Below are positions 19,769 to 44,962 of a stretch of 44,962 nucleotides of DNA, piece after piece. Every line of letters begins with the position of its first letter. Position 1 is the first letter of the stretch. This DNA comes from a virus. The stretch covers positions 1-44,962 of IMG/VR virus record IMGVR_UViG_3300042301_004089. One strand, given 5' to 3'. Made by a program: the position numbers and the translations under genes. The notes under the pieces were generated by a model. It had not been told where the DNA came from. It made no database searches and saw nothing but the letters and a program-made list of their open reading frames with translations.

Positions 19769-19776
19769 TATAAATA
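19769..19776 (+). promoter_or_regulatory. T4-type late promoter box TATAAATA
   Basis: Exact TATAAATA ending 5 bases before the ATG at 19782. With the minus-strand box at 19748-19755 it makes a divergent promoter pair in a 45-base gap. Confidence 0.75.
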
Positions 19777-19781
19777 CATAT

Positions 19782-20771: not shown

Positions 20772-20782
20772 ATACTTATTTA

Positions 20783-23383: not shown

Positions 23384-24405
23384 TATATCGGTTGGTTAAT
23401 ACTATCTTGTTGTAAAGAACATGGATTGGTAATGAAAGGAGATAAGTTTTTAGGCATTTCATTTATTTCGTTATTCATGTATTTAATAATATCTGTAACT
23501 TTACTCCAATATTCATATTCATATATACCATTAGTTTCTCTTAATTTTTTTCTAACAATTCTATCTAAACCATAAAGCAACTCAAAACCTGTAGATTTTT
23601 GTCTTGTTATTAATTCAGGCCAATATTTTTTACACATATCAAATTTTGAACTTAAATTACTTAATTTATCTTTTATTTTATTGTTATGTAATTCTGTTGA
23701 CTTTGGATCTGTTAATATAGACATCATTAATTCTGGTGTATATTGGAAAAAAGCAGGTACGGCTGGACGGTTTTGTTTAAATGCATATCTATACCAAGCG
23801 GCAAATTTTTCTCTTTCGACTAAAACCCAATCAACGTTAGTATAAACTCTAGCAGATTTATTCCATTGTTTTTGTTCTGCTATATCAACTCTAACTGTGT
23901 AACAATCTCCACTTCCTAATATAGGTAGACCATCTAATTTATTCATTAACCACATATGAGTTAATATTTGGGGGCTAACTGCTTTACTAATGTCCGAGTA
24001 CTGTAAATATTCTCCGCTTTTCCAAAAATTTTCTACATCTAATTTATGTATTATGGGAGTTATATTTAAATTATTACAAATAGATTTAGCGAACGAAACG
24101 TCATAAGCATTTAAAAAATTATCAAATTCAATTATATTTACATTAATAGGAACCTTTGTTTCTACAAAAGAACGTAATACTATTTCACTATCTATTCCTC
24201 CTGAAAACAATATATCTATCGGTAAACCTTCTCTTTGTTCCCAAATAATAGATGCTGCTTTTATACATTCATCTCTAAAATTTAAATTAGTTCTTTGACA
24301 GCGTCCATATATAACTGACCAGTTATCCTCAATTGAGGTTTTGTCAACGAACCAGTTGCCGTTATATCCAAATTTAAAATGATTATCTTTAGTGTATTGA
24401 TACAT
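23383..24405 (-). CDS. Second asparagine-synthetase-like PP-loop protein
   Basis: A 340-aa protein with LPIDILFSGGIDSEIVLRSF, the PP-loop SGGIDSE at 68-74, and ILGSGDCY (about 163-169), a shortened counterpart of the second synthetase motif. Again there is no glutaminase domain: about 65 residues precede the PP-loop. It differs clearly from the 382-aa PP-loop protein in the same operon, so the two are not a recent duplication and may act on different substrates or as a pair. Likely reaction: ATP-dependent activation of a carboxylate or carbonyl. It starts one base after the GNAT gene. Confidence 0.75.
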   Translation of the reverse strand: MYQYTKDNHFKFGYNGNWFVDKTSIEDNWSVIYGRCQRTNLNFRDECIKAASIIWEQREGLPIDILFSGGIDSEIVLRSFVETKVPINVNIIEFDNFLNAYDVSFAKSICNNLNITPIIHKLDVENFWKSGEYLQYSDISKAVSPQILTHMWLMNKLDGLPILGSGDCYTVRVDIAEQKQWNKSARVYTNVDWVLVEREKFAAWYRYAFKQNRPAVPAFFQYTPELMMSILTDPKSTELHNNKIKDKLSNLSSKFDMCKKYWPELITRQKSTGFELLYGLDRIVRKKLRETNGIYEYEYWSKVTDIIKYMNNEINEMPKNLSPFITNPCSLQQDSINQPI

Positions 24406-24406
24406 A

Positions 24407-25582
24407 TTAACTTATAAATTTAATTCTTCTTTTTATATAACTCCAATGTTGTGCAAAAATATTTTGTTCTTTATGAAATTTTAAAGGAGGCATTGTCTTT
24501 ATTAACTTCCATCCTATACTTTCGTATCTGTTATCACCAGGTGTCACAGCAACAATATGTGCTGTATTATCTTCACACCATTTGTTATTGTTTATGTAAT
24601 TTAATTTAAAATTCCATAAAGCATTCCATACACCTTGTTTTCTAAAATCTTTGTGTGTCCAAGAACATCTATGGTATACTGTTAATTCGTTTGTTTCATC
24701 ACTTATGTATTTCGCCATAGCTATTGTGCCTACTAATTTTTTATTAATATAAGCACAAAAATATTTATGCTCTCCATTTTTAACACAATCCTTATAATTA
24801 TCAGGATTAAGCATTACATCATCATCTTTTAGTAATGTTTCGTATTGCATTAAATTATCTAAAGTTGTTTCTTCTATTTTTATTCTTTTTCCTACATACT
24901 TTTCTTCGTCTTTTAATTCCTTGTATTGTAGTGGAACAAAATCTTCTTTTAACAATCCTTTATCTTTATAATAATTATGTAATAACTCTGGTTTTAATAC
25001 GGCCATTTTAATACTTAGTTTTGCATTTGCACCATTATTGCCGACCATATTTTTTTGATATTGATATATTGGTTGATCTCCTACACCATACATACTGTCT
25101 ATAAAAACATGGTATCTTCTAAAGGCATAACAATTTTTATACCATTGTTCTTCTCTAAAGTTCCAACCTCTTGTTTCAGAAATCCAATACCACTGAAAGT
25201 AATTTTTTGTTTCGGCAAACTCTACACAATAATCAATACATTTAGCTAGTCCCATAGATTCAACATTATAGAGATTACTTAAACCTACACGCACAACCAT
25301 ATTACCAATATAATAAGAAGGCCGTGTACTGTCAAAATATTGTGTTACTACTGATATTAAATTTTTATTATCGTCAAAAGCACCTAAACTTTGTCCTAGC
25401 CCCGATAAATTGTTTTGTTTTTCTATGCCTATAGATAAAGCACCATATCTCTTTACTATTCTATCTATTAAGGTTTGATTGTGTTCTGATTCTGGTCTTT
25501 TTAATTTGACTTTACTCCATCTGGAATTTACCAAATCGGAAACTTGTTCAATATCAGTTATGTTTAATCGTCTAATAATCAT
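24407..25582 (-). CDS. GNAT acetyltransferase-like protein, possibly two domains
   Basis: A 391-aa protein, first gene of the six-gene minus-strand operon. The start MIIRRLNITDIEQVSDLVNS is a typical GNAT beginning, followed by a strand-rich first half. The second half ends in VYHRCSWTHKDFRKQGVWNA, where RKQGVWNALW (314-323) resembles the acetyl-CoA pyrophosphate loop (Q/RxxGxG/A), then a helix and the VAVTPGDNRYESIGWKLIK strand common near GNAT C-termini. Single GNAT domains are about 150-180 aa, so two tandem domains are plausible, the first probably degenerate. It should acylate an amine; substrate unknown. Confidence 0.65.
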   Translation of the reverse strand: MIIRRLNITDIEQVSDLVNSRWSKVKLKRPESEHNQTLIDRIVKRYGALSIGIEKQNNLSGLGQSLGAFDDNKNLISVVTQYFDSTRPSYYIGNMVVRVGLSNLYNVESMGLAKCIDYCVEFAETKNYFQWYWISETRGWNFREEQWYKNCYAFRRYHVFIDSMYGVGDQPIYQYQKNMVGNNGANAKLSIKMAVLKPELLHNYYKDKGLLKEDFVPLQYKELKDEEKYVGKRIKIEETTLDNLMQYETLLKDDDVMLNPDNYKDCVKNGEHKYFCAYINKKLVGTIAMAKYISDETNELTVYHRCSWTHKDFRKQGVWNALWNFKLNYINNNKWCEDNTAHIVAVTPGDNRYESIGWKLIKTMPPLKFHKEQNIFAQHWSYIKRRIKFIS

Positions 25583-25584
25583 AT

Positions 25585-25592
25585 TATAAATA
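25585..25592 (+). promoter_or_regulatory. T4-type late promoter box TATAAATA
   Basis: Exact TATAAATA 14 bases before the ATG at 25607, inside the 24-base gap between divergent genes. Confidence 0.7.
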
Positions 25593-25601
25593 GTATTACT
25601 A

Positions 25602-25609
25602 TATTTATG
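25602..25609 (-). promoter_or_regulatory. Late promoter variant CATAAATA
   Basis: Minus-strand CATAAATA ending 19 bases before the ATG at 25582. It overlaps the first codon of the plus-strand gene, so the two divergent promoters are interleaved. It would drive the six-gene operon down to 20094. Confidence 0.45.
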
Positions 25610-26446
25610 ATGGATAAAAAAGAAAAATTTTTAAAAAAATTAGTTCAAATACCACATTTAAACTTAACACAATATATAAAAAAAGTCAAGCTAAATGAGA
25701 TGTTATCTGATTTGCAACAGTTCAAAAACACTGATTATTTACCTTATCAGACTGCAACAAAGAATAAAGAGTTCTTTGATTTTTTAGCTAAAAATTGGCA
25801 AGGCATGTGTTTAATTGATAGTGTTAAAAATGGTAAACAGTTTATGGACTACACCACAAACACATTGAATGATGAGAAGTTAGAGTTTAATTTTAACGAA
25901 TATGGTAGACCTATTTTTTTACCCACTGACGTTGGTAAGTTATGTCCTAACATATTAGAATATTGTTACAACATTGTAAAGAGTCCTAAAAGAACCAGAT
26001 TAAGTAGATTGGTGCCTCAAGGCCATTTTCATTGGCATAGTCATAAAGTTTTATCACAGGCGGGCGTGGCAAATACTAAATTTGTAAGTGGTAAATATTC
26101 AAACACAGTTATAATGCATATAGTTTTAAAAACTAATTCTAAGTGTTGGATGGGAGTTAGTAATCAACATCCATTTGGTGGTCATCCTTACGAAATATAT
26201 AAAGAACATTACGGATTAGGAGAAGTATGGATATTAAATGGTGACTACTATCATAATGTTTTTAATGGTAGTGATGAAGAAAGAGACCATATAATGTTAT
26301 ATGCAGATCCTTTTGATAAAAATTTATATGACGTATTAGAACAGTGTGTAGAAGAATACAACGGCCCACTTTTAACTGATGATATTATACCTCAAAGAAT
26401 ACATGGTGAGTTAAAATTAAACTTAGAAACTGGACTAAAATTATAA
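25607..26446 (+). CDS. Aspartyl/asparaginyl hydroxylase-like oxygenase
   Basis: A 279-aa protein. RLSRLVPQGHFHWHSH carries a cluster of four histidines (H140, H142, H144, H146); it is followed by MHIVLKTNSKCWMGV (H171), a GEVWILNGDYYHNVFN strand pair with distal H216, and R226. This arrangement fits the cupin/double-stranded beta-helix fold of aspartyl/asparaginyl beta-hydroxylases, Fe(II)/2-oxoglutarate enzymes. The first 120 residues are helical. A second ATG lies one codon after the first. It ends with no gap against the convergent oxygenase-like gene. Hydroxylase activity is inferred. Confidence 0.65.
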   Translation: MMDKKEKFLKKLVQIPHLNLTQYIKKVKLNEMLSDLQQFKNTDYLPYQTATKNKEFFDFLAKNWQGMCLIDSVKNGKQFMDYTTNTLNDEKLEFNFNEYGRPIFLPTDVGKLCPNILEYCYNIVKSPKRTRLSRLVPQGHFHWHSHKVLSQAGVANTKFVSGKYSNTVIMHIVLKTNSKCWMGVSNQHPFGGHPYEIYKEHYGLGEVWILNGDYYHNVFNGSDEERDHIMLYADPFDKNLYDVLEQCVEEYNGPLLTDDIIPQRIHGELKLNLETGLKL

Positions 26447-27133
26447 TCAGTAAACAATAGAATATTGTTTATATTTTTTTACACTTCTTTCAAGCAACTC
26501 AAATAATTTTTTATAATCGTAATCGCCATTTAGAACACAAGTAACTCTATTTCCCGTAGGATTAGGATTTTTTTCTATACCATGGAATGCATCAATACTG
26601 TTTAACATCCATGCACATCTTTTTTGAGGAAATTTTGCATATAACTTTTCTTTTTGACTATGTTCCCACAAGTCTGTATATTTGTTGTCAACCATAGTTC
26701 GTAAACGAGTTGTTAATCGTTCTTTACTTTTTACAAAATATAATTTTTCTCCTAGTCCATTAAATAAATAAAATCTCATACCCCATCTATTGTCTGGATC
26801 TGTATGTAAATATACATCTCTACTTTCTTTTTGATCTAAAAAACTTATGCTTTTAAATTGTTTAAAAGGATATAATTTAAAGTATTCAACAAGTTCAGGA
26901 AATGTTTTTTCAAAATTGCATATCCAAGGATTTGGTTTATCGTAGGTATTCCACCATAACGCCCAACTTACTTCCCATGGATACTCTTGTTTACCATCGG
27001 CTACTAAGGCTGTGACATTGTGTTTTTTGTTGAAATCTAATTGTTCATTATACCAAACTTTAAATTTACTATAGTCTATAACAGGAGGGGTTGGTAAATC
27101 CAATGGGCAAAATAATAAGTCTTTGTAATCCAT
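26447..27133 (-). CDS. Fe(II)/2-oxoglutarate oxygenase-like protein, 228 aa
   Basis: The motif order is clear: DVYLHTDPDNRWGMRFYLF contains H110-T-D112, the first two iron ligands; RCAWMLNSIDAFHGIEK contains the distal H184; and NRVTCVLNG has R196, the usual co-substrate anchor. The N-terminal third is Trp-rich (WEVSWALWWNTYDKPNPW), possibly a substrate pocket. It is a single-gene unit with its own minus-strand late promoter 9 bases upstream. It is one of four proteins with this pattern between 22.6 and 28.7 kb and shares little sequence with the others beyond the ligands. Confidence 0.65.
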   Translation of the reverse strand: MDYKDLLFCPLDLPTPPVIDYSKFKVWYNEQLDFNKKHNVTALVADGKQEYPWEVSWALWWNTYDKPNPWICNFEKTFPELVEYFKLYPFKQFKSISFLDQKESRDVYLHTDPDNRWGMRFYLFNGLGEKLYFVKSKERLTTRLRTMVDNKYTDLWEHSQKEKLYAKFPQKRCAWMLNSIDAFHGIEKNPNPTGNRVTCVLNGDYDYKKLFELLERSVKKYKQYSIVY

Positions 27134-27142
27134 AATAATAAC

Positions 27143-27150
27143 TATTTATA
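27143..27150 (-). promoter_or_regulatory. T4-type late promoter box TATAAATA (minus strand)
   Basis: Exact TATAAATA on the minus strand, 9 bases before the ATG at 27133. It forms a divergent pair with the plus-strand CATAAATA at 27154. Confidence 0.7.
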
Positions 27151-27153
27151 CAG

Positions 27154-27161
27154 CATAAATA
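27154..27161 (+). promoter_or_regulatory. Late promoter variant CATAAATA
   Basis: CATAAATA ends 5 bases before the ATG of the desaturase gene; no exact TATAAATA lies upstream of that gene on the plus strand. Confidence 0.5.
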
Positions 27162-27166
27162 TAATT

Positions 27167-27934
27167 ATGTTTACCAATTTAATAAGATCAAATACAAAAT
27201 ACTTTATACCCTTACAAATTACACTTACTCTTGTAATACTTTGGGCATTAATATTTGGTGGCTTTTCATGGTATTGGTGGGTGTTTGGACTTATAGGTTA
27301 TTTCGTTACAGGCTGTTTAGGCATCACTGTTACTTTTCATAGATATTTAAGTCATAAGAGTTTTAAAATATCAAAATGGTTAGAGTATCTTTTTAGTTTT
27401 TTTGGTGCTATGGGTGGAACAGGTTCATCTATAGGTTGGGTAGCCGTTCACAGACAACACCATTCTCATAGTGATGTTGAAGGAGACCCACATAGTCCTA
27501 GATTAAATGGTTGGAAAGTTTTATTTCCTAACTATGATTTTAAATGGAATAAATGGCCAATAAGAGATTTAATCGTTGATAAATTTCATTTGTTTTTACA
27601 TGAATATTACTTTGGTATATTATTTTCTTGGGGTCTATTATTAAGTTTACTATTTGGACTTGAAGGATTTATATTTTTATTTTGTTTTCCTATTGTATGT
27701 CAAGTATGGTCTAGTGTATTAAGTAACTATGTTAATCATGCAACATGGTTGCCTTTTGGTTATAAAAACTTTGATATAAAAGATGACTCGGTAAATAGTT
27801 TACCTTTAGCATTGATTACTTTTGGAGAAGGATGGCATAACAATCATCATAAATTTCCAGGACGTTCTTCTTTTAAACACAAGTGGTGGGAATACGATCT
27901 TACTGGTTGGGTTATTAAAATTATTAAAAAATAA
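27167..27934 (+). CDS. Membrane fatty-acid (acyl-lipid/acyl-CoA) desaturase
   Basis: A 255-aa protein with all three histidine boxes of membrane di-iron desaturases: H58-RYLS-H63, H95-RQ-H98-H99 and H224-NN-H227-H228. Hydrophobic segments at about 15-55, 73-93 and 145-190 would form the membrane helices, with the boxes facing the cytoplasm. Length and the HRYLSH/HRQHH/HNNHH spacing match delta-9-type desaturases, and desaturases are known from cyanophages. It should insert a double bond into host fatty acids, changing membrane fluidity during infection. Its end overlaps the convergent oxygenase-like gene by 11 bases. Confidence 0.9.
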   Translation: MFTNLIRSNTKYFIPLQITLTLVILWALIFGGFSWYWWVFGLIGYFVTGCLGITVTFHRYLSHKSFKISKWLEYLFSFFGAMGGTGSSIGWVAVHRQHHSHSDVEGDPHSPRLNGWKVLFPNYDFKWNKWPIRDLIVDKFHLFLHEYYFGILFSWGLLLSLLFGLEGFIFLFCFPIVCQVWSSVLSNYVNHATWLPFGYKNFDIKDDSVNSLPLALITFGEGWHNNHHKFPGRSSFKHKWWEYDLTGWVIKIIKK

Positions 27935-28688
27935 TATCTTCTTTAGATAAAATATCCATATACGGCTTCGATAACTTTGCAAAGATTCTTAATTGTATTC
28001 TAATATCTGATATTTCATTAGTACAGTGTAAACATGAATCATCAAAATGCCATGCTTTATATTTACTCTCATCTAGGTTGTGTTTCGTTTTAGTTCTATG
28101 ATTTTCAAAATATAAATGACCACCACCTGCAGCTATATTTAATGTTATTGAACCAAATCCATTTTTGTAAAATTTTTCATTCGTTATAGGCCCACTATCT
28201 TTATGTACAACTCCTATACTAGGAGGACTTTGAACAATGCAACGTATTGTTAATGGATATTCTATTGGTAGTGATTTAATAACCTGTTGAGTGTATGGTA
28301 TATTTAAATCCGGTCTCCAACTCCAAGGTGATTGATATTTTATCCATAAAGGCAAACGATCATTAGTTTCTAATTTTCCTTCCCAAGAATCTTTTTTAGA
28401 AATTTCTTTTTCAGGGAGATAGGTTAAATTTAACATACGAAAGGTATTGTAATTACCTTTTACTAGTAAACGACCATCATCACTATTTTTATAATGATGT
28501 ATTTCTTTTTGTTTTTCAAATATTTTTTCGGAAAATAAAGTTCCTTCTGGGTCCCATATACTGTTACCCTTTTCATTGTAATTGGTTGTAGCAACCATAC
28601 TGTTTTCAAGTATATTATTTTCTAATAATTCTTGTTTGATTTTTTCTTGGTCAAAATCAAAATCTATCTTTGCCCATATAGGAAACAT
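27924..28688 (-). CDS. Fe(II)/2-oxoglutarate oxygenase-like protein, 254 aa
   Basis: The C-terminal half contains SIGVVHKDSGPI with H162-K-D164, a Gly-rich strand (NIAAGGGHLYFENH), WHFDDSCLHCTNE with distal H221, and DIRIQLRIF with R230/R234. This is the ligand order of 2-oxoglutarate oxygenases of the aspartyl-hydroxylase/prolyl-hydroxylase type. The first 120 residues are polar and helical with Trp-rich loops (KYQSPWSWRPD). It follows the GNAT-like gene after one base, so the two are co-transcribed from 29331. The substrate is unknown. Confidence 0.62.
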   Translation of the reverse strand: MFPIWAKIDFDFDQEKIKQELLENNILENSMVATTNYNEKGNSIWDPEGTLFSEKIFEKQKEIHHYKNSDDGRLLVKGNYNTFRMLNLTYLPEKEISKKDSWEGKLETNDRLPLWIKYQSPWSWRPDLNIPYTQQVIKSLPIEYPLTIRCIVQSPPSIGVVHKDSGPITNEKFYKNGFGSITLNIAAGGGHLYFENHRTKTKHNLDESKYKAWHFDDSCLHCTNEISDIRIQLRIFAKLSKPYMDILSKEDIIF

Positions 28689-28689
28689 A

Positions 28690-29313
28690 TTATGTAATTT
28701 TCTCCGGTAAGTATTTATTTAAAAATTCTTGTTCTGTACAATCTAATAGTTTTATTGCTATTTTTTGTTTCGTTGAGTTTATGTTATACATATCATCTAA
28801 TAAAACAAAATCTTTATAAAAATTGCTAGGCTTATAACCTAAGGTTACGGCCTTATTTTGTTTAAGTCTTTCTATAAATTTATATAACCACAAATTGTAT
28901 AAGTTAAAAGTCATAACTGTTGCCTTGCAATTGAGCTCTTTAGCTAATTCAATTTGTTTAGGTAATAAAAAATTACCATGCCACCAATTTTTACGTAACT
29001 TATTAGATGTCCATGTACGAGATCCTATTATCATTATACTTTTTGACCATGGACTTAAATAACAACCACTGCATGCTATAGGTTTGTTTTCTTTTAATAA
29101 TATAAAAAAACTTCCTGATGGTAAATCGTACCTTTTTTTAATGGCAATTTTATACATTAAAGAAGATGCATTGGATTGCCAATCTTTCCAATTTATGTTT
29201 TTAGCAGCTGGACTGGTGTCTTTTTCAGATAAAGAACAAATATCTTTCAATACGATTTCATGTTCTTTCCAATTTTGACTATTAATTGTTATAATTTTTA
29301 AGTCATTTTCCAT
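28690..29313 (-). CDS. GNAT-like acyltransferase, 207 aa
   Basis: The centre reads like a GNAT fold: SGSFFILLKENKPIACSGCY (about 72-91) as the central strand pair, then IIGSRTWTSNKLRKNWWHG and a helix, LPKQIELAKELNCKATVMTF, and NLYNLWLYKFIERL as a C-terminal element seen in acetyltransferases (N-x-x-x-x-x-x-Y-K/E). The acetyl-CoA loop is not canonical, so the activity is uncertain. It is the first gene of a two-gene operon with the oxygenase-like gene and has an exact minus-strand late promoter 10 bases upstream. Confidence 0.55.
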   Translation of the reverse strand: MENDLKIITINSQNWKEHEIVLKDICSLSEKDTSPAAKNINWKDWQSNASSLMYKIAIKKRYDLPSGSFFILLKENKPIACSGCYLSPWSKSIMIIGSRTWTSNKLRKNWWHGNFLLPKQIELAKELNCKATVMTFNLYNLWLYKFIERLKQNKAVTLGYKPSNFYKDFVLLDDMYNINSTKQKIAIKLLDCTEQEFLNKYLPEKIT

Positions 29314-33464: not shown

Positions 33465-36400
33465 ATGGCAGATTTCAAATTAGGTAGATTAAAATTTAAA
33501 TGGAGAGGCGATTGGGCAACTTCAACTGTTTATGTTATAGACGACATAGTAAAATATGGTGGTAACTCTTACGTTGTTTTAGTAAATCATACTTCTCAAT
33601 CTACAAGTCCAGGATTTTATACAGATTTATCTGCTGGTAAATATTCACTACACAGTGAATCTTTTTTCTTTAAAGGCACATATGCGGCCTCTACACATTA
33701 CAAATTAAATGACGTTGTAAAATATGGTTCAAGACAATATCGTTGTACAACTCAACACACATCAGCTGCGGCTGTAAGTGGTGTAGCAATATTAAACGTA
33801 GCTAATTTTGAATTATATTCTGATGCAACAGATTACAAAGGAACTTATGCTATCAGTACTTACTACAAAGTAAATGATGTTGTAAAATACGGTGCAAGTT
33901 TATGGATTTGTACAACAGCTCATACATCATCAGCAAGTGCTTCAGCTTTTGATGAAACAAAATTTAGTGTTTACACTGAAGGTTTACAATGGGAAGATAG
34001 TTACAATCCTTCTACAAATTATCAAACAGGCGATGTAGTAACTTACGGTGGTTATACTTACGTTGCAATACAAGAAACTCCAGCAGGAAATACTCCTACA
34101 GATAACGCATATTGGGACGTTGTAACAACAGGTTATAAACCTACAGGAACATTTTCATACGGCACTGCATATAAAACAGGAGATGTAGTTAATTACGGAG
34201 GTAACTCTTACGTATCAAACTCAAATCATTCAAATCAATATCCTGCTGTACAGGCAACAGGTGCAGTAAATTCAACTTATTGGAATTTAGTTACAACAGG
34301 TTTTAAATATCAAGGAGCATATTCTTCAGGCACAACATATTTAATTGGCGAAGTTGTAAGACATTTAGGTTCATCTTACATACAGAAAAAAGATAGACAA
34401 AGTGGAATAACTCCTGGAACAAACGAATTTGTTTGGGAAACATTAGCAGTTGGTGATGAAGGCAACGTGATGACTGAATCTGGCGATATGATTATTCTTA
34501 ACGCTTCAGGTGCACCAACAAGATTAGATTTAGGTCCACAAGGTTCGATATTAACTTCAAACGGTTCAATACCTGAATGGCGTTTAGATGAAGCTGGTAA
34601 AAACGTAATTTATGTTTCAAATTCAGGTAACGACTCAAATCCTGGTTCAAAAACTTTACCTAAAAAAACTATTAAAGCTGCTTTAACTGCTTCTAACAAA
34701 AGTGATATATTAGATTTAACAAGTGTTTCGGGAGGTGTAGGAGGAGCAGGAGGAGTATTTGACGTTTCTACTTTCACAACTTCAGGAACAGGAACAGGAG
34801 CTACTTTTAGAATTACATTAGATGGTTCAACAGTGCCTACTGTTTCAAATGTAAAAATTACAAATGGCGGTAAAAATTTTGTTACTGGCGATACTGTTAC
34901 AATTAACGGTGCATCATACTTAGGCAACGCTACTAACATGACACTAACTATAAACAGTGTTGGCTTCGGAGATATGGTGTGGGTAAAAGCAGGTTCTTAT
35001 AAAGAACATTTACCATTAGTTGTGCCTGCTAACGTAACAGTAAGAGGTGAAGCATTAAGAGCTGTCGAAGTAAGACCTGAATCGGGGTATTCATCTACAG
35101 CTGCAACAATTTCATTCGCATCTACAATTTCAGGTGCTACACCAGGAACTTACAAATATAAACACCCAACAACAGCTACAGGTTCAGGAGATGGATTAGT
35201 AGTAAACGTTACAATTACGGGAGTTTCTGTTACAGCTGTTGCTGTTTACCATGGTGGTTTCGGATACGAAATAGGAAATACTGCAACACTAAGTGCAGCT
35301 ACAATTGGTTGTGGTGGTACAGGTACCTTAACAGTTCAGATTGCATCATTAGAAGCAAACAACGCTTCTTATATGTGGTTATTAAATGATGGTACAAATT
35401 TACGATTAATGACATTAAGAGGTATGACTGGCACTTCTACACATTTAGCTGCCAACACAGGTTTTGGTGGTGCTGTTTTAACTTCATTAGATCCTGCAGG
35501 AGCAATTTTAACTCAATCTCCATATCTACAAGATATGACATCTTACAATCCCAACGCTGTTGGTATAAAAATAGATGGCCTTTTACATACAAACGCTGCA
35601 AGTAATAAATCTATTTTAGCAACACACTTTACACAAATTAATTCTGACGGTATAGGTATTTGGTGTCACGGAAATGGTCGAGCAGAAATGGTTTCTTGTT
35701 TTACTTATTTCTGTAATAAATCTTATTTTGCTTCAGAAGGTGGTTTCATAAGAAGTCTAAACGGTTCATCTTGTTATGGTGAACAAGGCGCTGTTGCTAC
35801 AGGTCAATTAGTTGCTGAAACTCCTATTCAAATACAAGGTAATGGTGAAATGCTTAGATATAACGCCACTTTATCATCAGTTGGACCTGGAGGTTTTATA
35901 GGTCTTGCAACACAATCAGATATTTCAGGAGCAATTGCAATTAACGGTTCAGGAAACGCTAATATTGTAGGAGTTACGTCAGGTGCAACTGCTAAGTTTT
36001 TAAGATATAACACACAATTAAATAATATTCACATAACAAATAGAGTTGGAAATTTCCAAAAAGGTGAAGTCATTACTATTACAAAAGAAAATTCATCAGT
36101 ATTTCAAGTTACTTTAAATGCAACTTTTGGTCCTTCAGATTCCACAAACGTTGCACAACAAGGGCAATTAGGTCCTATTATTTCAGTAAAATCAGGATCT
36201 ACATCTTTATCTACAGCAGGTGTAATAACTGTAGGAGCAAACGTTAAATTTACTGGCAACTCCAGATATTATCGTGTTAACTTAGTAACAGAAGAAAACA
36301 CTGCTGCAGGTACAGCGACTATACGTTTAACAGATAGCGTTACTCAACTTGATGGTGCTGTAGGTAATAATAACGCAACTCTTATTACGACAAAATTTTC

Positions 36401-37244
36401 AAACGTCCGATTAACAGGCCATGACTTTTTAAATGTAGGAACTGGCGATGTAGTAACAACTAATTATCCAGGAATTCCTTCACAAGCGCCTGACCAAACA
36501 GACGAGGTAGAAGAATTATTAGGAGGCCGTGTTTATTTCGTTTCTACAGACCAAGATGGAGATTTTAGAGTAGGAGATTTATTCCGTATTCAACAGGCAA
36601 CAGGTATTGCAACTTTAAATGCTGACGCTTTTGACCTTTCAGGATTATCTGAATTACAACTTGGTTCTATCGGTGCTCAATTAGGTGCTACGATTAATGA
36701 ATTTTCAATAGACGAAACATTATCTGGTAATAGTAATACAGCTATTCCGACAGAAGGTGCTGTATTAGGATATTTGACAAGAGATTTCGCCGGCACAGGA
36801 GCTTGGGTGCCACCTACTGGTACAACAGCAGAAAGACCCACAGGCGTATCTTTATATACAGGTGGATTTAGATATAACACAACTTTGAATCAGTGGGAAG
36901 GATATAATGGTAATTCTTGGACAGGATTAGGAGGCGGCAACCCTTACTCAACAGTTATAGGAGATGGTTCAACTATAGTTCAAGCAGCATCTAATGATAG
37001 AATTTTTGTAAATACATCAGCAGCAACTGCTACTGTAAGATTACCAGCTTCTCCTTTATTAGGTGACGAAATACAATTTTTAGATTTAAACGGCACTTTT
37101 GATACCAATATTTTAACTATAACTAGAAACAGTTTAAAAATAATGGGATTAAATGAAGATATGACTGTGAATGTTAAACATGCAGGATTTGTTTTAGTTT
37201 ACACAGGTGCAACTTACGGTTGGAAAATAACAGAAAACGATTAA
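33465..37244 (+). CDS. Large fibre/adhesin with six repeats and beta-helix-like core
   Basis: A 1259-aa protein. Residues about 10-330 are six tandem modules of about 50 aa, each with W/YxGxYxxxTxYxxxDVVxYGG followed by a second aromatic strand, resembling small chitin/cellulose-binding (CBM5/12-like) modules. From about 382 (VIYVSNSGNDSNPG, then SKTLPKKTIKAAL) to about 800 the sequence looks like a right-handed parallel beta-helix, as in pectate-lyase-like phage adhesins, including VWVKAGSYKEHLPLVVP and NVTVRGE. The last 110 residues are a tip module shared with the 209-aa protein at 38800. Likely receptor-binding, possibly polysaccharide-directed. No catalytic residues can be assigned. Confidence 0.72.
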   Translation: MADFKLGRLKFKWRGDWATSTVYVIDDIVKYGGNSYVVLVNHTSQSTSPGFYTDLSAGKYSLHSESFFFKGTYAASTHYKLNDVVKYGSRQYRCTTQHTSAAAVSGVAILNVANFELYSDATDYKGTYAISTYYKVNDVVKYGASLWICTTAHTSSASASAFDETKFSVYTEGLQWEDSYNPSTNYQTGDVVTYGGYTYVAIQETPAGNTPTDNAYWDVVTTGYKPTGTFSYGTAYKTGDVVNYGGNSYVSNSNHSNQYPAVQATGAVNSTYWNLVTTGFKYQGAYSSGTTYLIGEVVRHLGSSYIQKKDRQSGITPGTNEFVWETLAVGDEGNVMTESGDMIILNASGAPTRLDLGPQGSILTSNGSIPEWRLDEAGKNVIYVSNSGNDSNPGSKTLPKKTIKAALTASNKSDILDLTSVSGGVGGAGGVFDVSTFTTSGTGTGATFRITLDGSTVPTVSNVKITNGGKNFVTGDTVTINGASYLGNATNMTLTINSVGFGDMVWVKAGSYKEHLPLVVPANVTVRGEALRAVEVRPESGYSSTAATISFASTISGATPGTYKYKHPTTATGSGDGLVVNVTITGVSVTAVAVYHGGFGYEIGNTATLSAATIGCGGTGTLTVQIASLEANNASYMWLLNDGTNLRLMTLRGMTGTSTHLAANTGFGGAVLTSLDPAGAILTQSPYLQDMTSYNPNAVGIKIDGLLHTNAASNKSILATHFTQINSDGIGIWCHGNGRAEMVSCFTYFCNKSYFASEGGFIRSLNGSSCYGEQGAVATGQLVAETPIQIQGNGEMLRYNATLSSVGPGGFIGLATQSDISGAIAINGSGNANIVGVTSGATAKFLRYNTQLNNIHITNRVGNFQKGEVITITKENSSVFQVTLNATFGPSDSTNVAQQGQLGPIISVKSGSTSLSTAGVITVGANVKFTGNSRYYRVNLVTEENTAAGTATIRLTDSVTQLDGAVGNNNATLITTKFSNVRLTGHDFLNVGTGDVVTTNYPGIPSQAPDQTDEVEELLGGRVYFVSTDQDGDFRVGDLFRIQQATGIATLNADAFDLSGLSELQLGSIGAQLGATINEFSIDETLSGNSNTAIPTEGAVLGYLTRDFAGTGAWVPPTGTTAERPTGVSLYTGGFRYNTTLNQWEGYNGNSWTGLGGGNPYSTVIGDGSTIVQAASNDRIFVNTSAATATVRLPASPLLGDEIQFLDLNGTFDTNILTITRNSLKIMGLNEDMTVNVKHAGFVLVYTGATYGWKITEND
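33492..34440 (+). repeat. Six tandem ~50-codon carbohydrate-binding-like repeats
   Basis: In-frame repeats at the start of the 1259-aa gene, with the cores WRGDWATSTVYVIDDIVKYG, FKGTYAASTHYKLNDVVKYG, YKGTYAISTYYKVNDVVKYG, WEDSYNPSTNYQTGDVVTYG, PTGTFSYGTAYKTGDVVNYG and YQGAYSSGTTYLIGEVVRHL. Repeats 2 and 3 are the most alike. A seventh copy opens the separate gene at 38800 (FQGAYNNSTAYVVDDIVTFG). Confidence 0.85.
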
Positions 37245-38799: not shown

Positions 38800-39429
38800 A
38801 TGGCAACACTCAATTTAGGAAGAATTAAACCAGTATTTCAAGGTGCTTACAATAACTCTACAGCTTATGTAGTAGATGACATTGTAACATTTGGAGGAGA
38901 AACATTTATTTGTATTTTAGCTTCCACAGGAAACGCTACTTCAAGTGCAACATATTGGAGTAAATTAGCACAAAAAGGAGCAGACGTAACAGCACTTACG
39001 ACTCATGGTGATTTGTTATATAGAGATGCTTCAGGTGTAGCAAGATTACCAGCTGGAACAAGTGGACAAGTTTTACAAACTAAAGGTGCTGGCCAAAATC
39101 CTGTTTGGGCTTCTGCAAGTTCAATTTTATGGGAATATAAACAAGCCAATTTTACAGCGGCCGCAGGTGGTGCTTATATAATTAACACAACAGCTGCCGG
39201 ATTTACTATGACTTTACCAAGTACTCCTGCAGATAATGACCAGGTTTTATTTGTTGATTCATTTGGAACTTGGGCAACAAATAATCTTACAGTAGCTCAA
39301 GCTGGTGGATATAAAATAGCAAATGCAAACGAAAATTTAACTTGCGACCAAAACTATGCTACTATTAGATTGACATTTAAAACTACACCAGACGTTACAT
39401 CATCTTATATTGGATGGTTATTAACATAA
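38800..39429 (+). CDS. Mini-fibre protein: one repeat module plus tip domain
   Basis: A 209-aa protein that looks like a shortened version of the 1259-aa fibre. It begins MATLNLGRIKPVFQGAYNNS (compare MADFKLGRLKFKWRGDWATS) and has a single binding-like repeat (about 10-60). A linker, LTTHGDLLYRDASGVARLPA, then GTSGQVLQTKGAGQNPVWAS, is common in phage tail fibres. The C-terminal tip (about 115-209; GGAYIINTTAAGFTMTLPST) parallels the last 110 residues of the 1259-aa protein. It may be an alternative fibre or a mixed-trimer partner. Confidence 0.72.
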   Translation: MATLNLGRIKPVFQGAYNNSTAYVVDDIVTFGGETFICILASTGNATSSATYWSKLAQKGADVTALTTHGDLLYRDASGVARLPAGTSGQVLQTKGAGQNPVWASASSILWEYKQANFTAAAGGAYIINTTAAGFTMTLPSTPADNDQVLFVDSFGTWATNNLTVAQAGGYKIANANENLTCDQNYATIRLTFKTTPDVTSSYIGWLLT

Positions 39430-39490: not shown

Positions 39491-40996
39491 ATGGCATCAA
39501 TATCACAATTAGTTTTATCAAAAACAGATAGTCGTAAAGAAGGTTTACCTTTATACGGATTTTTAGGTGATAGTGGAGATGGTAATGGCGGTTGGTCATT
39601 TAGAGTTTTTGATTCTGGCCATAAAATCGTAGGAAATCCTTGGGGACAAGGTACACATTCAACAGCAGGCCATAGATTTGGTATTTGTAGTGATGCTATG
39701 CACTCTTACAACTATGCAGATTTTGGTACTGATATAACTCATTCTGATTTAACAACACAAACTTATTCCTCTTGGACTAATTATAATAAGAGCATATATC
39801 AAACAGACCAATATCCTTGGGGACAATATTACTCTCTTTCCAGAACAGGATATGTTACTTGGAATGGTTATCATCAATATACCGAGAGCATGGAATATCA
39901 AATAGGTTGGACAAAAGTTAATCACGTTCTTCCTGAAGGAATTAGACCTAGAAGATTATTCTGTAACAGACGACAGACTTTAAGAGAATTAAATGCAGGA
40001 AATAATACTTCAGGACAAATTCAATATTACAATTATACTTCACACATGTTAAGTGTTGTAAACGATTATGCTGTAAGTACAGGATATAATGAAAAAAATA
40101 AAATGTTGGTTATGCTTCATTCAGCTAATGAAACAACTTCAACAGCAATGACTATTCATGTATTTAAATCAAGTGTATGTTTAAATAAAGTAAAAACAAT
40201 TAAAGAATTTTTTGATAATCTAACGGCTACTGAATACTTTACCGATACATGGACAACAGGTCAAAATAAAGATTGGGTAACAGTTGTAGGTAATAATGGT
40301 TATGTAGGATTTGGACAAAAATATGGCAACACTATGAACTATGGAGTGTTCAACTGTAATACTGGACAATCTTTAGGAACTACTGGTGCGGCTAGACAAT
40401 TTTCAACATGGCAAGCTTTTCAAGGTTCTACAACAACCTCATATGGTACTGACCAAGCAAATTTATACTACACAAAATTTAATCATACATGGGACGGAAC
40501 TTGGGGAATGATTTATAGTTCTTACTACTATTATGGTGTAGGTCTAAATGCTTTTTGTATGAATTTAGAAAATCCTAGAAAATTTATAAGCGTAAGTGTA
40601 ACAAGAACAAGTAGAGGTAATCCATATTTAGCTTGGGGTAGAACAGGATTTCATGGAGGTCAAAGTGAAAACACAGATTCTCAATCTCACAGAACATACG
40701 CTTGGTCTTTTGATCCAAACGATTCAGATCATACAACGACAACTAAAGTACTTTATGGAAACGATAATTGTGGTACTCTAGTACCTGCAAGTAACGATAC
40801 AAATTTAGCTACGGCATCATCTATTAACTCTGGTTCAGTAGTTGTAAATAAAACAGGAGTTTTTGGTGTACCTCAATCAAGAACTTTTTTACACGGAGGT
40901 TATCACTCAACTTCTTATCCACTAATGTTTCAAGTAAATTGGTGGGGCAAATATGGGCAACATGACTTTTCATACGGAGGACTATACGGTAGTTAG
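39491..40996 (+). CDS. Putative adhesin/receptor-binding protein, copy 1
   Basis: A 501-aa protein rich in Gly, Trp, Tyr, His and Asn, starting at ATG 39491 after an AGGA site. It opens MASISQLVLSKTDSRKEGLP and has GHRFGICSDAMHSYNY, then HVLPEGIRPRRLFCNRRQTL (about 145-164) and a C-terminal LMFQVNWWGKYGQ. Such aromatic- and Gly-rich, non-repetitive sequence is typical of receptor-binding tips. It aligns over its whole length with the 500-aa protein at 41347-42849. I do not recognise a known fold. Its position at the end of the fibre genes supports host recognition. Confidence 0.6.
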   Translation: MASISQLVLSKTDSRKEGLPLYGFLGDSGDGNGGWSFRVFDSGHKIVGNPWGQGTHSTAGHRFGICSDAMHSYNYADFGTDITHSDLTTQTYSSWTNYNKSIYQTDQYPWGQYYSLSRTGYVTWNGYHQYTESMEYQIGWTKVNHVLPEGIRPRRLFCNRRQTLRELNAGNNTSGQIQYYNYTSHMLSVVNDYAVSTGYNEKNKMLVMLHSANETTSTAMTIHVFKSSVCLNKVKTIKEFFDNLTATEYFTDTWTTGQNKDWVTVVGNNGYVGFGQKYGNTMNYGVFNCNTGQSLGTTGAARQFSTWQAFQGSTTTSYGTDQANLYYTKFNHTWDGTWGMIYSSYYYYGVGLNAFCMNLENPRKFISVSVTRTSRGNPYLAWGRTGFHGGQSENTDSQSHRTYAWSFDPNDSDHTTTTKVLYGNDNCGTLVPASNDTNLATASSINSGSVVVNKTGVFGVPQSRTFLHGGYHSTSYPLMFQVNWWGKYGQHDFSYGGLYGS

Positions 40997-41004
40997 AAAA
41001 AATT

Positions 41005-41337
41005 ATGGCAATAAAATATTTTAATTCACATGACGGATCAATTTTAACAGATAAAACTGCTGCAGGCGAAGAAGCAGTAAGACAAGGAAGAGCTATAGCA
41101 ATTAATTGTCCTGATAATATTGAATCTTGGAGATTAAAAGCAAATTTATCAACAAGCCAAGTTATTGTTTATGGTGGAATTGAAAAAACTGAAGCACAAG
41201 CTATACAGCAAAAAGCTGATGAAGATAGAGCAAAAGCGGCAACAGAAAAAGAAATAGCAGATTTAAGAATGGCATTACAGGAAAAACAAGAAGAAGAACG
41301 TAAAGCTTTACAAGCTACGTTTAATAATTTAGGATAG
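41005..41337 (+). CDS. Adhesin partner protein, copy 1 (110 aa)
   Basis: ATG at 41005 follows the adhesin stop by 8 bases. The N-terminal half (MAIKYFNSHDGSILTDKTAA, then VIVYGGIEKTEAQAIQQKAD) is a small alpha/beta domain; from about 65 to 105 it is a long charged helix of Glu, Lys, Ala and Gln. It pairs with copy 2 at 42862-43194. A gene of this size right after a putative fibre-tip gene often encodes a fibre-assembly chaperone or a capping protein, but no family similarity is recognised, so this is inference from position. Confidence 0.6.
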   Translation: MAIKYFNSHDGSILTDKTAAGEEAVRQGRAIAINCPDNIESWRLKANLSTSQVIVYGGIEKTEAQAIQQKADEDRAKAATEKEIADLRMALQEKQEEERKALQATFNNLG

Positions 41338-41346
41338 GAATAAACA

Positions 41347-42849
41347 ATGGCAAGATTACTTAATTTACTCCAAGCTCGTACAGACCACCGTAAAGAAGGT
41401 TTACCTCTCTATGGTCAACAAGGTGATACTGGCGATTCAAACGGACAAATGAATTTTAGAGTTTTTGATTCTGGCCATAAAATTGTAAGCACTCCTTGGG
41501 GTGGAACAGGACATTCTACAGCACACCATAGATTTGGTATTTGTGCTGATGCTATGCACGCTTACACTAATAATGATTTTGGTGACGCTGTAACACATTC
41601 TGATTTAACAACTCAAGCATCAGGCTCTTGGCAAAATTGGTTAAAAAGTGTATACCAATGCGACCAATATCCTTGGGCACAATATTATACTCTATCCAGA
41701 AATGGTGATTATACAATGCAGTCTTATCATAATTTAACAGAAGGCATGGAATTTACTGTTGGATGGACAAAAATTAATCATGTTCTTCCTGAAGGAATTA
41801 GACCTAGAAGATTATTTTGTAACAGACGACAGACTTTAAGAGAATTAAATCCAGGTAATAATGCTTCTGGACAAATAGGTTATTACAATTATGAATCACA
41901 TATGTTGAACGTAACTAATACATATGCTGTAAGTACAGGATATAATGAATCAACAAAAACGTTGGTTATGGTTCACTCATCAGGAGAGGGTTCTGAAACA
42001 GCAAAAACTATTCATATATTTAAATCGTCAAAAAACTTAAATACAGTTAGCACAATTAAAGAATTTTTTGATAATCTAACGGCGACTGAATACTTTACTG
42101 ATACTTGGACAACAGGTAACAATAAAGATTGGGTAACAGTTGTAGGTAATAACGGTTGGGTAGGATTTGGACAAAAATACGGTAACTCTAAGAGATATGG
42201 AGTGTTCAACTGTAATACAGGATTATCTTTAGGAACTACTGGTGCGGCTAGACAATTTAGTACTTGGTTTGATTTTCAAGGTTCTACAACTACATCTTAC
42301 ATGTCTGACCAAGGCAATCAATATTACACAAAATTTAACCATACTTGGGATGGAACTTGGGGAATGATTTATTCTCCATATTATTATTATGGTGTAGGTC
42401 TAAATGCTTTTTGTATGAATTTACAAAATCCTAGAAAATTTATAAACGTAAGTGTAACAAAATCGACTAGAGGTAACCCTTATTTTGCTTGGGGTAGAAC
42501 AGGATTTCACGGTGGATGGAGTGATAACTGCGATGGCGATACTTTTAGAACATACGCTTGGTCTTTTGATCCAAACGATTCAGATCATACAACGACAACT
42601 AAAGTACTTACTGGACAAACCGCTGGTGATTCTTTAGTAGGAACATCTAATGATACTAATATAGAAACAGCATCAAGTATTGGATCAGGTTCAGTACTTA
42701 CAAACGCTACAGGAGTTCTTAGTCCGCCTGCTTCCAGAACTTATTTACATGGTGGAAACACTAGTACTAACTATCCACTAATGTTTCAAGTAAATTGGTG
42801 GGGAAGTTTTAATTCAGGAGAACAATCATACGGCGGAATTAGAGATTAA
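41347..42849 (+). CDS. Putative adhesin/receptor-binding protein, copy 2
   Basis: A 500-aa paralogue of the protein at 39491. It opens MARLLNLLQARTDHRKEGLP and keeps GHRFGIC-like (HHRFGICADAMHAY), HVLPEGIRPRRLFCNRRQTL, EFFDNLTATEYFTDTWTTG and AYAWSFDPNDSDHTTTTKVL-like blocks. Differences concentrate near the N-terminus (about 70-130), around 185-225 and in the last 80 residues, where the C-termini diverge (NWWGSFNSGEQSYGG against NWWGKYGQHDFSYGG). This is what is expected if two copies evolved toward different receptors. Confidence 0.6.
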   Translation: MARLLNLLQARTDHRKEGLPLYGQQGDTGDSNGQMNFRVFDSGHKIVSTPWGGTGHSTAHHRFGICADAMHAYTNNDFGDAVTHSDLTTQASGSWQNWLKSVYQCDQYPWAQYYTLSRNGDYTMQSYHNLTEGMEFTVGWTKINHVLPEGIRPRRLFCNRRQTLRELNPGNNASGQIGYYNYESHMLNVTNTYAVSTGYNESTKTLVMVHSSGEGSETAKTIHIFKSSKNLNTVSTIKEFFDNLTATEYFTDTWTTGNNKDWVTVVGNNGWVGFGQKYGNSKRYGVFNCNTGLSLGTTGAARQFSTWFDFQGSTTTSYMSDQGNQYYTKFNHTWDGTWGMIYSPYYYYGVGLNAFCMNLQNPRKFINVSVTKSTRGNPYFAWGRTGFHGGWSDNCDGDTFRTYAWSFDPNDSDHTTTTKVLTGQTAGDSLVGTSNDTNIETASSIGSGSVLTNATGVLSPPASRTYLHGGNTSTNYPLMFQVNWWGSFNSGEQSYGGIRD

Positions 42850-42861
42850 GGATAAAAAATT

Positions 42862-43194
42862 ATGAAAACAGTTTATTTTGGTACACACGACGGACTAGTT
42901 CTTACAGAAAACACAGTAGCTGGAGAACAAGCATTAAGTTCAGGAAGAGCTTTTAAAGCTGAAACTCCTGATATTTCAAGTTGGAGATTAAGTTTAAATT
43001 TAGTAACAAAAGAAGTTACTGTTTATGGCGGCATTGAAAAAAATGATGCACAAGCTATACAACAAAAAGCTGATGAAGATGCAGCTTTAAGGGCAGCTGA
43101 AAAAGCAGCTGAGGACTTGGCAAACAAAGAGATATATAAAGCTGCAGAACGAGAAAAAGAAAGAAGAAAACAGTTATTAGCAAGCAAAAGTTAA
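42862..43194 (+). CDS. Adhesin partner protein, copy 2 (110 aa)
   Basis: ATG at 42862 follows an AGGA site. The product begins MKTVYFGTHDGLVLTENTVA and keeps VTVYGGIEKNDAQAIQQKAD, matching copy 1; the C-terminal charged helix has diverged (AAEREKERRKQLLASKS against RKALQATFNNLG). It is the last gene transcribed with the late block; after it comes a 74-base gap containing a host-type promoter. Role inferred as assembly helper or fibre cap for the adjacent adhesin. Confidence 0.6.
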   Translation: MKTVYFGTHDGLVLTENTVAGEQALSSGRAFKAETPDISSWRLSLNLVTKEVTVYGGIEKNDAQAIQQKADEDAALRAAEKAAEDLANKEIYKAAEREKERRKQLLASKS

Positions 43195-43225: not shown

Positions 43226-43243
43226 TTATTGTATTGACAATAA
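43226..43243. promoter_or_regulatory. Inverted repeat overlapping the -35 box
   Basis: TTATTGT and ACAATAA form a perfect 7-base inverted repeat around ATTG, covering the TTGACA at 43234-43239. It could be an operator; as an RNA hairpin it would be weak, with no T-tract, so a terminator is less likely. Confidence 0.35.
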
Positions 43244-43262
43244 GTGATATATAGTGTATGAT
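43234..43262 (+). promoter_or_regulatory. Consensus-like sigma70 promoter
   Basis: TTGACA (43234-43239), a 17-base spacer, and TATGAT (43257-43262): the -35 and spacer are ideal and the -10 is one base from TATAAT. Transcription should begin near 43269, the ATG of the following gene. No TATAAATA box lies upstream of this cassette, so it is expected to be read by host RNA polymerase, as early phage genes are. Confidence 0.65.
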
Positions 43263-43268
43263 TATATA

Positions 43269-44078
43269 ATGGAAAAAACAAACAATCCCAACATAGAATT
43301 TATCTGTACGGAACCAGGTGTTGAATCAACAATGCCTATTATACGATCATCAGAATATAAACCTTCTTGGTTAAAAAAAGCCGCAGCTGATTTTAAAAAT
43401 AATGGGTCGCTGTCAATGAACACTCCAAATGATGATGATGAAATATTTAGAGCTGTATCAAGTAATAATTTTAAAAAAGAAGATAACAGACACACTATAA
43501 AATGCCCTGGTATGAATATGTGGCATAATACCGGTTGGATTATGAGATTGCCTTATGACATTAAATTTGAAGTTATACAAAAAGGCGAATACTGGGATTT
43601 TGTATCTGCTGACCAATCAACTAAAAAAAGACTAGTTACTTTTCATCTTAAACATTCTTTTTATCCATTTTTTGAAAACTGGCCTAAAAATACAATGAAA
43701 AAAATTGTTAAGTTTCATTTACCTTGGTCGGCAAGAATACCAAAAGGATATAAACTTTTAATATTACACCCTATGTATTTGGATGATAATAGATTTACTA
43801 CTTGTAATGGCGTCTATGACCCACAATTAGGTATTGCTGACATAGGTACTGTTCCTTTATTTTGGCATAGTTTAGAAGGACAACATACAATTACTGCAGG
43901 TACACCTGTAGCTCAATTCATATTAATACCAAAAGAAGAACCTAATTTTAAAATTATTGAAGAAGAAAACGATAAAAACTTTAAAAAAGAACAAACGATT
44001 ACACGAAAATTTTTAACGCAAAGTTTTACTACAAATTATACTCAAATAAAAGAATTTTGGAAAAAATACGGATGGTAA
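43269..44078 (+). CDS. DUF6065-like protein upstream of the bilin genes
   Basis: The frame can be extended to GTG 43254, but that codon lies inside the promoter, so ATG 43269 (MEKTNNPNIEF) is taken as the start, giving 269 aa. The segments IEFICTEPGVESTMPI, PGMNMWHNTGWIMRLPYDIK, HLPWSARIPKGYKLLILHPM and ITAGTPVAQFILIPKE resemble a phage/prophage family of unknown function that I recall as DUF6065. The fold looks mainly beta. It is the first gene of the cassette, 24 bases before the heme oxygenase gene and probably co-transcribed with it. No catalytic motif is evident. Confidence 0.6.
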   Translation: MEKTNNPNIEFICTEPGVESTMPIIRSSEYKPSWLKKAAADFKNNGSLSMNTPNDDDEIFRAVSSNNFKKEDNRHTIKCPGMNMWHNTGWIMRLPYDIKFEVIQKGEYWDFVSADQSTKKRLVTFHLKHSFYPFFENWPKNTMKKIVKFHLPWSARIPKGYKLLILHPMYLDDNRFTTCNGVYDPQLGIADIGTVPLFWHSLEGQHTITAGTPVAQFILIPKEEPNFKIIEEENDKNFKKEQTITRKFLTQSFTTNYTQIKEFWKKYGW

Positions 44079-44102
44079 AATACGTAAAGGCATATTACAA
44101 TT

Positions 44103-44681
44103 ATGTCAGATATTAAAGAGTTAACTAAACAACATCATGCAATTGCCGAAGAACAAGAGTTTGTAAAAACTTTAATGTCAGGTAAAATTCATAAAGAATT
44201 ATATGCTACATATTTGTTTAATTTGTTACAATGTTATTCACTATTAGAAAAATATTCTTTGCAAAATGGACTTTTTAGACAACTGCCACAACTAGAAAGA
44301 GCTAATAATTTAGATTTTGATGTTCGTTCACTTTGGAACAAACCAGAAAAACCTTACATCACAGATAGCACATTAAGATATATCTATCATTTAGATGATA
44401 TAAAAGACCAACCTGAAAAGTTGTTTGCTCATATCTATGTAAGACATATGGGAGATTTATATGGTGGCCAAATGATTAAAAGAAAAACACCTGGCCCTAA
44501 TACATATCTTGTTTTTTTAAAACCTGATGATTTAAAAAGAGTTATTAGAGAAAATATTAATAACTACATGAACACCTATCAAGTAAACGTGGTTGCTGAA
44601 GCTAAATTATGTTTTGAATATGCTACAGAATTATTTAAGGAAATGAATGATTTGGGAAAATCTTATACAGTGCAAAAATAA
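44103..44681 (+). CDS. Heme oxygenase
   Basis: A 192-aa, all-helical protein. LTKQHHAIAEEQEF places H12 in the H-x-x-A-E context of the proximal heme ligand, and HMGDLYGGQMIKR (116-127) is the distal-helix signature (GDLSGGQ in human HO-1), whose glycines let O2 reach the heme. Length is nearer to bacterial HemO (about 200 aa) than to cyanobacterial Ho1 (about 240). The enzyme opens heme to biliverdin, CO and Fe(II) using reduced ferredoxin or another donor. The bilin reductase gene starts inside its 3' end (35-base overlap), so product should pass to that enzyme. Confidence 0.92.
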   Translation: MSDIKELTKQHHAIAEEQEFVKTLMSGKIHKELYATYLFNLLQCYSLLEKYSLQNGLFRQLPQLERANNLDFDVRSLWNKPEKPYITDSTLRYIYHLDDIKDQPEKLFAHIYVRHMGDLYGGQMIKRKTPGPNTYLVFLKPDDLKRVIRENINNYMNTYQVNVVAEAKLCFEYATELFKEMNDLGKSYTVQK

Positions 44682-44962
44682 CATCATAGACATATTAGAT
44701 TTAAATTGTGTAGAATACTTTGAGGAAGGTATGACACGATTTAATAAAGAAGGTTGGGTTAACCGTACCTGGAAAAATGATAACATAAGACGAGCTCACG
44801 TTGATGTAGTTGATGCCAGAGAAACAAAAGGACTTTGGATGATGCACGTTTGTTTATTTCCTGGCCTTACAAATGGTGGCCCAATATATGGATTTGATGT
44901 AATTGCAGGTAAGAATAAAGTAACAGGTGCATTCCACGATTTTTCACCATTACTTAAAAAAG
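44647..44962 (+). CDS. Ferredoxin-dependent bilin reductase (PcyX/PebS-like), N-terminal part
   Basis: From ATG 44647, in the +1 frame relative to the heme oxygenase gene, 105 codons are open to the window edge; family members of about 230-250 aa imply that over half is missing. HVDVVDARETKGLWMMHVCL, then FPGLTNGGPIYGFDVIAG and GAFHDFSP, are the FDBR core. H67 and D84 are 17 residues apart, exactly as His88 and Asp105 of PcyA. The position of PcyA Glu76, 12 residues before the His, is Val55 here, as expected for PebS/PcyX-type rather than PcyA enzymes. Such enzymes reduce biliverdin by four electrons, probably to phycoerythrobilin. ATG at 29 is a possible alternative start but would lose conserved sequence upstream. 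Confidence 0.85.
   Translation, partial: MIWENLIQCKNNIIDILDLNCVEYFEEGMTRFNKEGWVNRTWKNDNIRRAHVDVVDARETKGLWMMHVCLFPGLTNGGPIYGFDVIAGKNKVTGAFHDFSPLLKK

Follow-up and report, generated by a model that had tools for sequence, protein, structure and literature searches.

Heme oxygenase, PcyX and a predicted porin in a gene cluster of pelagimyophage-like contigs: a possible route to heme iron

The stretch of DNA analyzed here (the window, a complete virus record of 44962 bases) ends in a complete heme oxygenase (HO) gene, hemO, that overlaps the start of a gene for a ferredoxin-dependent bilin reductase (FDBR) of the PcyX type. In relatives from the window's clade, these two genes and a third, coding for a predicted outer-membrane porin, form what is well supported as an operon, hemO-pcyX-porin. 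The question at stake is that of a light-harvesting pigment made by viruses of non-photosynthetic bacteria, and the third gene points towards heme-iron recycling, not photosynthesis. A pelagimyophage operon hemO-pcyX(-porin) that would serve heme-iron salvage is an account that, taken as a whole, comes close to being probable. The pair of enzymes is less novel than the initial annotation of this DNA had suggested: Pelagibacter phage Mosig carries it, and the hemO-pcyX cassette and its pelagiphage origin have been published (Wegner et al., 2024, PMC11480375). What is new is the operon form with the porin and an occasional neighborhood of iron genes; no report of either was found in the searchable literature, which does not extend to supplements and subscription papers.

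Heme oxygenase and bilin reductase at the contig end

The final 860 bases of the window hold the complete hemO and the first 105 FDBR codons; because the window is the whole record, the reductase is cut off at the contig end and its C-terminal half is not readable there. The features of this region are:

39491-43194, plus strand: tail-fibre-like module of two paralogous pairs (about 500 aa plus 110 aa), recognized as open reading frames and by the shared clusters TF13/TF11
43254-44078, plus strand: upstream gene, phrog_7084 (PHROG E = 1.2e-36), a doubtful member of the cassette
44103-44681, plus strand: heme oxygenase (hemO), complete, 192 aa, PF01126, with proximal His12 and distal GDLYGGQ
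44647-44961, plus strand: PcyX-type ferredoxin-dependent bilin reductase, N-terminal 105 of about 227 aa, PF05996, open at the contig end

HO matched Pfam family PF01126 with E = 3.8e-20 and 73 bits (curated cut-off 23). HO-1 from the PDB matched it with E = 5e-14 and with the active site aligned: His12 falls on the proximal heme His of mammalian HO-1 and GDLYGGQ on the distal GDLSGGQ. Judged by the profile, the proximal His and the distal GDxxGGQ, the protein is firmly assigned to the heme oxygenase family, as the initial annotation had proposed from the same residues. Cleavage of heme to biliverdin IX alpha has been shown for the CB_2 phage enzyme, a different HO (PMC11480375). The overlap with the FDBR start, also part of that annotation, measures 35 nt and recurs in 39 related loci (duplicate loci counted).

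The FDBR matched PF05996 with E = 7e-8 and 32.8 bits (curated cut-off 31). Only 105 aa of the fold are readable in the window, but the form of about 227 aa is intact in full-length relatives that are 99% identical over the shared part. A full-length near-twin aligned end to end with PcyX EBK42635 (5OWG), the phycoerythrobilin synthase from oceanic phage metagenomes, at E = 2.4e-107, compared with just E = 6e-14 for PcyA. The window's His67 and Asp84, previously described as spaced as in PcyA, indeed align with the PcyA His/Asp pair and equally with His69/Asp86 of PcyX. Window Asp53 aligns to PcyX Asp55, a residue named as PcyX-specific (PMC11480375). This position is Asp in 58/58 viral relatives, whereas Synechocystis PcyA and the six cyanophage PcyA compared have Glu; Asp55, His and Asp are all kept in 58/58 viral FDBRs. 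In a tree that included 5OWG, PcyA 2D1E, six cyanophage PcyA and three PebS as references (PebA, PebB, HY2 and alphaproteobacterial PcyA were left out), the window FDBR grouped with 5OWG and Mosig inside the PcyX clade, which is separate from both PcyA and PebS. We conclude that the reductase is PcyX; an identity as PcyA or PebS is ruled out by the residue at the Asp55 position together with the tree, and a grouping with cyanobacterial PcyA, which had been considered beforehand, was not observed.

PcyX converts biliverdin through 15,16-dihydrobiliverdin to phycoerythrobilin (PEB) (PMC6755814, PMC13193486). Since Asp53 is of the PcyX type, PEB is the predicted product of the window's copy, which sharpens the original proposal that the pair would turn heme into a reduced bilin. 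All three EBK42635 residues are conserved in the window's family; unlike EBK42635, the window's copy is cut by the contig end and its product is a prediction only. A frameshifted or decayed reductase, likewise raised beforehand, is ruled out, as the relatives are intact and constrained: 58 distinct viral FDBRs reach 200 aa or more and have an intact C-terminal half. In the window's clade median dN/dS was 0.06 for the FDBR, 0.15 for HO, 0.105 for the porin and 0.093 for gp13, and these low values argue that all four are working genes. The cassette genes are intact and under purifying selection.

The gene behind pcyX in relatives

Relatives were collected by scans of IMG/VR, which gave 34 HO loci and 493 FDBR loci, 80 of the latter being kept. 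After removal of doubly fetched contigs, 90 contigs remained, with an FDBR gene in 82 and HO also in 77 of these. One contig, L005/L038, matches the window colinearly over 6.2 kb (87.6% nucleotide identity) and then runs on through a complete FDBR gene, a porin gene, gp13, gp14, gp15 and gp16.

The gene 3' of pcyX in relatives is 353-366 aa long and lies just past the window's contig end, which is why the initial annotation does not mention it. It is separated from the FDBR gene by a gap of mostly 1 nt (37 loci, duplicate loci counted), and this spacing and the shared strand suggest co-transcription. The porin adjoins PcyX in 36/70 contigs with enough room and is lacking in the other 34. Among contigs with an FDBR sharing 89% identity or more with the window's, it is present in 27/27; the window's own phage therefore very probably carries it.

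The AlphaFold2 model of this protein (pLDDT 73, pTM 0.69) has 16 predicted strands. At the N terminus, a hydrophobic signal helix (residues 5-27) is followed by a short, coiled-coil-like helical stretch. Foldseek matched the model to the general porins 1PRN, OmpU and OmpF with E about 1e-9, and a C-terminal Phe is found in all 57 distinct porin sequences, 50 of which end in YKF. A predicted 16-strand outer-membrane porin with a signal sequence is thus well supported by the model. The protein shares this predicted barrel and signal sequence with general porins such as that of R. blastica (1PRN), OmpU and OmpF, but differs from them in being phage encoded, in its N-terminal coiled-coil stretch and in the lack of any sequence-level match. 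Indeed, searches by sequence gave no match in PDB, Pfam, NCBIfam or PHROGs, and 50,697 phage records yielded no relatives. Phage porins per se are not new, since BFVD contains others that are structurally distant from this one. A genome-contig scan for bacterial homologues found two MAG contigs, 50-54% identical by tblastn; one, from a SAR324 MAG, has the homologue adjoining ABC transporter genes, and in the other it adjoins sufS/sufE-like genes. The phyla of both MAGs yielded no further members of the family.

Porin and PcyX do not always travel together. Many porins stand alone, in other phages that carry them away from HO and PcyX. In 7 of the 28 T4-like contigs with a porin and, at first look, no PcyX neighbor, PcyX lies elsewhere on the contig, and several of the seven appear to represent a single phage. 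In a comparison of the porins, those of cassettes L085/L162/L164 nest among the porins of other phages, apart from the main cassette clade; hence there were at least two separate joinings of porin and PcyX. In one lineage only (L028/L029, in other respects a match to L010/L011), PcyX and porin were lost jointly while HO was kept intact: just the hemO-overlapping start of pcyX is left, 90 nt before gp13.

The hemO-pcyA/X-valaS cassette (Wegner et al., 2024, PMC11480375) likewise has HO and PcyX in pelagiphage-like T4 contigs, but its third gene is AlaS, whereas that of the window's clade is the porin. AlaS, the gene expected behind pcyX from the literature, was accordingly ruled out for that place. 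It corresponds to cluster F49, present in L092/L102/L105; the window lacks it, as do those contigs of its clade that were searched, and 2/30 contigs searched have it (L102, L105).

Phage kinship and the surrounding locus

Among 50,697 phage records, the best match for both HO (58% identical) and PcyX (71%) was phage Mosig, whose host is Pelagibacter HTCC1062. The baseplate protein is 46% identical to that of Mosig, compared with 34-35% for Methylophilales phage Melnitz and HTVC008M, and gp15/gp16 DNA, taken from a relative, shares 75% identity with Mosig. With Mosig the best match for baseplate protein, gp15/gp16 DNA, HO and PcyX, phage kinship suggests that the window belongs to a pelagimyophage, a T4-like phage of SAR11-type bacteria. 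This agrees with the initial view of a T4-like contig with a probably non-photosynthetic host. As myophages of freshwater SAR11 exist (PMC7029224), a freshwater SAR11 host is possible too.

Mosig (EXVC030M, MT647606.1) has, like the window's clade, a T4-like backbone with overlapping HO and PcyX genes before gp13/gp14. It differs in having no porin in the whole genome, and in carrying 2OG-Fe(II) oxygenases upstream, where the window's side has TF13/TF11/phrog_7084 genes. Mosig_00059 (L110 8910-9680), which adjoins the cassette, is labelled 'putative ferrochelatase'; Pfam gave no match for it, and it scored weakly as an Fe2+-dependent dioxygenase. The ferrochelatase label, shared by PHROG 2954, looks doubtful, and the gene was set aside as heme evidence. 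Genes for 2OG-Fe(II) oxygenases are common around cassettes and lie between HO and PcyX in L024, L039, L042, L044 and L046; a cluster F59 gene takes this place in L033 and L106. The usually overlapping pair is split by an antisense MFS transporter gene in L061 (4656-5921) and also in L157. A second FDBR lineage was seen in L035 (5168-5970) and L187, with Hsp20-like and ClpS genes directly 5' of HO and PcyX; L187 also has a CHASE2 plus adenylate/guanylate cyclase gene (6419-8473) a few genes from HO-PcyX-porin.

In the window the cassette follows tail-fibre genes, and in relatives gp13, gp14, gp15, gp16 and gp17 come after it; by these sequences, it sits between tail-fibre and neck genes. The region 5' of it is highly variable among relatives. 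The tail-fibre-like module at 39491-43194 consists of tandem pairs (501 aa + 110 aa and 500 aa + 110 aa), a module duplication present in one or two copies in relatives. The gene directly upstream of hemO had been called DUF6065-like and a possible sharer of the cassette's function. We could confirm neither suggestion. It had no Pfam match at E <= 5, and DUF6065 (PF19541) gave none even at E <= 10 with the family's own profile. Only 10 contigs have it immediately 5' of HO, relatives of about 27% identity being found further off in others, and its median dN/dS is 0.26. Its low-confidence model (AlphaFold2 pLDDT 65; Foldseek E = 7e-4 to a dUTPase) hints weakly that it may have a dUTPase-like beta-clip fold. 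We do not count this phrog_7084 gene as part of the cassette, of which it is a doubtful member.

Elsewhere in the window, tail proteins with carbohydrate-binding CBM_5_12 modules are encoded at 33465-37244 and 38800-39429, with three such stretches in a 1259-aa protein. Amid the plus-strand structural genes lies a mostly minus-strand island of about 12 genes (17783-29313), many without Pfam match. It holds a fatty acid desaturase gene (27167-27934, E = 1.6e-16), a weak match to Asp/Asn beta-hydroxylase (25607-26446) and, at 20783-21931, a protein family without Pfam or PHROG match that is common to the FTR1-bearing phage contigs L061 and L224; the L224 copy has an SGGIDS motif of the kind seen in PP-loop ATPases.

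Three phage genomes (L061/L062, L157, L158) carry the cassette followed within a few genes by FeS_assembly_P (E = 7e-16) and the iron permease FTR1 (PF03239, E = 2e-13, with two FREGxE motifs). One of their contigs, G006 (L062), has T4-type replication genes, e.g., UvsX, gp32 and DnaB. FTR1 occupies the same place in related phages without HO and PcyX, so its linkage to the cassette may be a coincidence within a variable region. Overall, phage FTR1 was seen at a conserved place in at least 14 viral contigs (L061 9186-9812, L157, L158, L215-L228), mostly with ClpP before it and a conserved gene behind; a search of the phages collection gave no match to it. Both Mosig and G009 have a gene for ferredoxin.

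What the cassette may be for

The purpose of hemO and FDBR genes in such phages has been called 'still enigmatic', with iron supply mentioned as an earlier idea (Wegner et al., 2024, PMC11480375). We judge heme-iron salvage, with PcyX clearing biliverdin, to be the most likely purpose, though it stays some way short of probable. During infection HO would open host heme to biliverdin, Fe2+ and CO. PcyX would then use four electrons from reduced ferredoxin to convert biliverdin to PEB, and this removal of biliverdin would pull HO forward. The porin would go to the outer membrane and alter what passes. The likeliest gain would be heme iron for the enzymes of phage and virocell, and the bilin would be a by-product. 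In this account the C-terminal part of the reductase and the porin lie outside the window and are read from relatives.

Several observations count for iron salvage: the FTR1 and FeS_assembly_P neighbors, the joint loss of PcyX and porin with HO kept in L028/L029, the bacterial porin homologue beside sufS/sufE-like genes, and the absence of phycobilisome or phycobiliprotein, CpeT, and PsbA or other photosystem reaction-centre genes from 20 contigs including Mosig. Against it, a four-electron reduction is a costly disposal of biliverdin if iron alone is wanted, and iron complexes are not a usual cargo of general porins. PcyX is, moreover, more constrained than HO, so the bilin itself could matter.

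This last point leads to a reading in which the bilin is what is selected: PEB would serve as a chromophore, a light-sensing or antioxidant pigment, or a signal on an unrecognised host or phage protein, and iron would be the by-product. The strong constraint on PcyX, the lowest dN/dS of the genes compared, and the full retention of its three catalytic-site positions speak for it, and heterotrophs are known to have bilin-binding globins and phytochromes (PMC10151467). However, HO persists without PcyX in L028/L029, and the 20 contigs lack phycobiliprotein-family and CpeT genes, in a search that did not extend to phytochrome or GAF genes. We consider a bilin-centred purpose unlikely, though well worth keeping in view.

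To about the same degree unlikely is that the porin is the selected gene, for receptor replacement, superinfection exclusion or nutrient uptake, and stands beside hemO-pcyX only through an insertion hot spot between tail-fibre and neck genes. The variability 5' of the cassette, the occurrence of the porin in phages away from HO and PcyX and its absence from 34/70 pcyX contigs are what such a hot spot has in its favor. It fits less well with the suggested co-transcription, with the repeated recruitment of porins from different lineages next to PcyX, and with the seven porin contigs that carry PcyX at a distance, even if several look like one phage.

A supply of phycobilins to the light-harvesting antennae of a cyanobacterial host, the published view for cyanophages (PMC11480375), P-SSM2, P-SSM4 and other T4-like members of which carry, like the window, heme-to-phycobilin enzymes (in their case HO and PcyA or PebS), is very improbable here, given that cyanophages have another FDBR lineage, separate from the window's clade and with Glu for Asp55 in PcyA, that PcyX is reported absent from them (PMC13193486), that their hosts are cyanobacteria with antennae while the closest cultured relative of our phage infects Pelagibacter, and that the 20 contigs lack PsbA, phycobilisome and CpeT genes.

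Returning to heme-iron salvage, the porin, the FTR1 neighbor and the HO-only lineage make the iron idea testable and provide new genes to assay. In its widest form, which we put forward tentatively and as less likely than the salvage purpose itself, aquatic SAR11-type phages may carry a dedicated heme-iron salvage operon, hemO-pcyX-porin, joined in some lineages by FTR1 and an Fe-S assembly protein, with which the outer membrane would be remodelled and heme iron stripped, the bilin being a disposal product.
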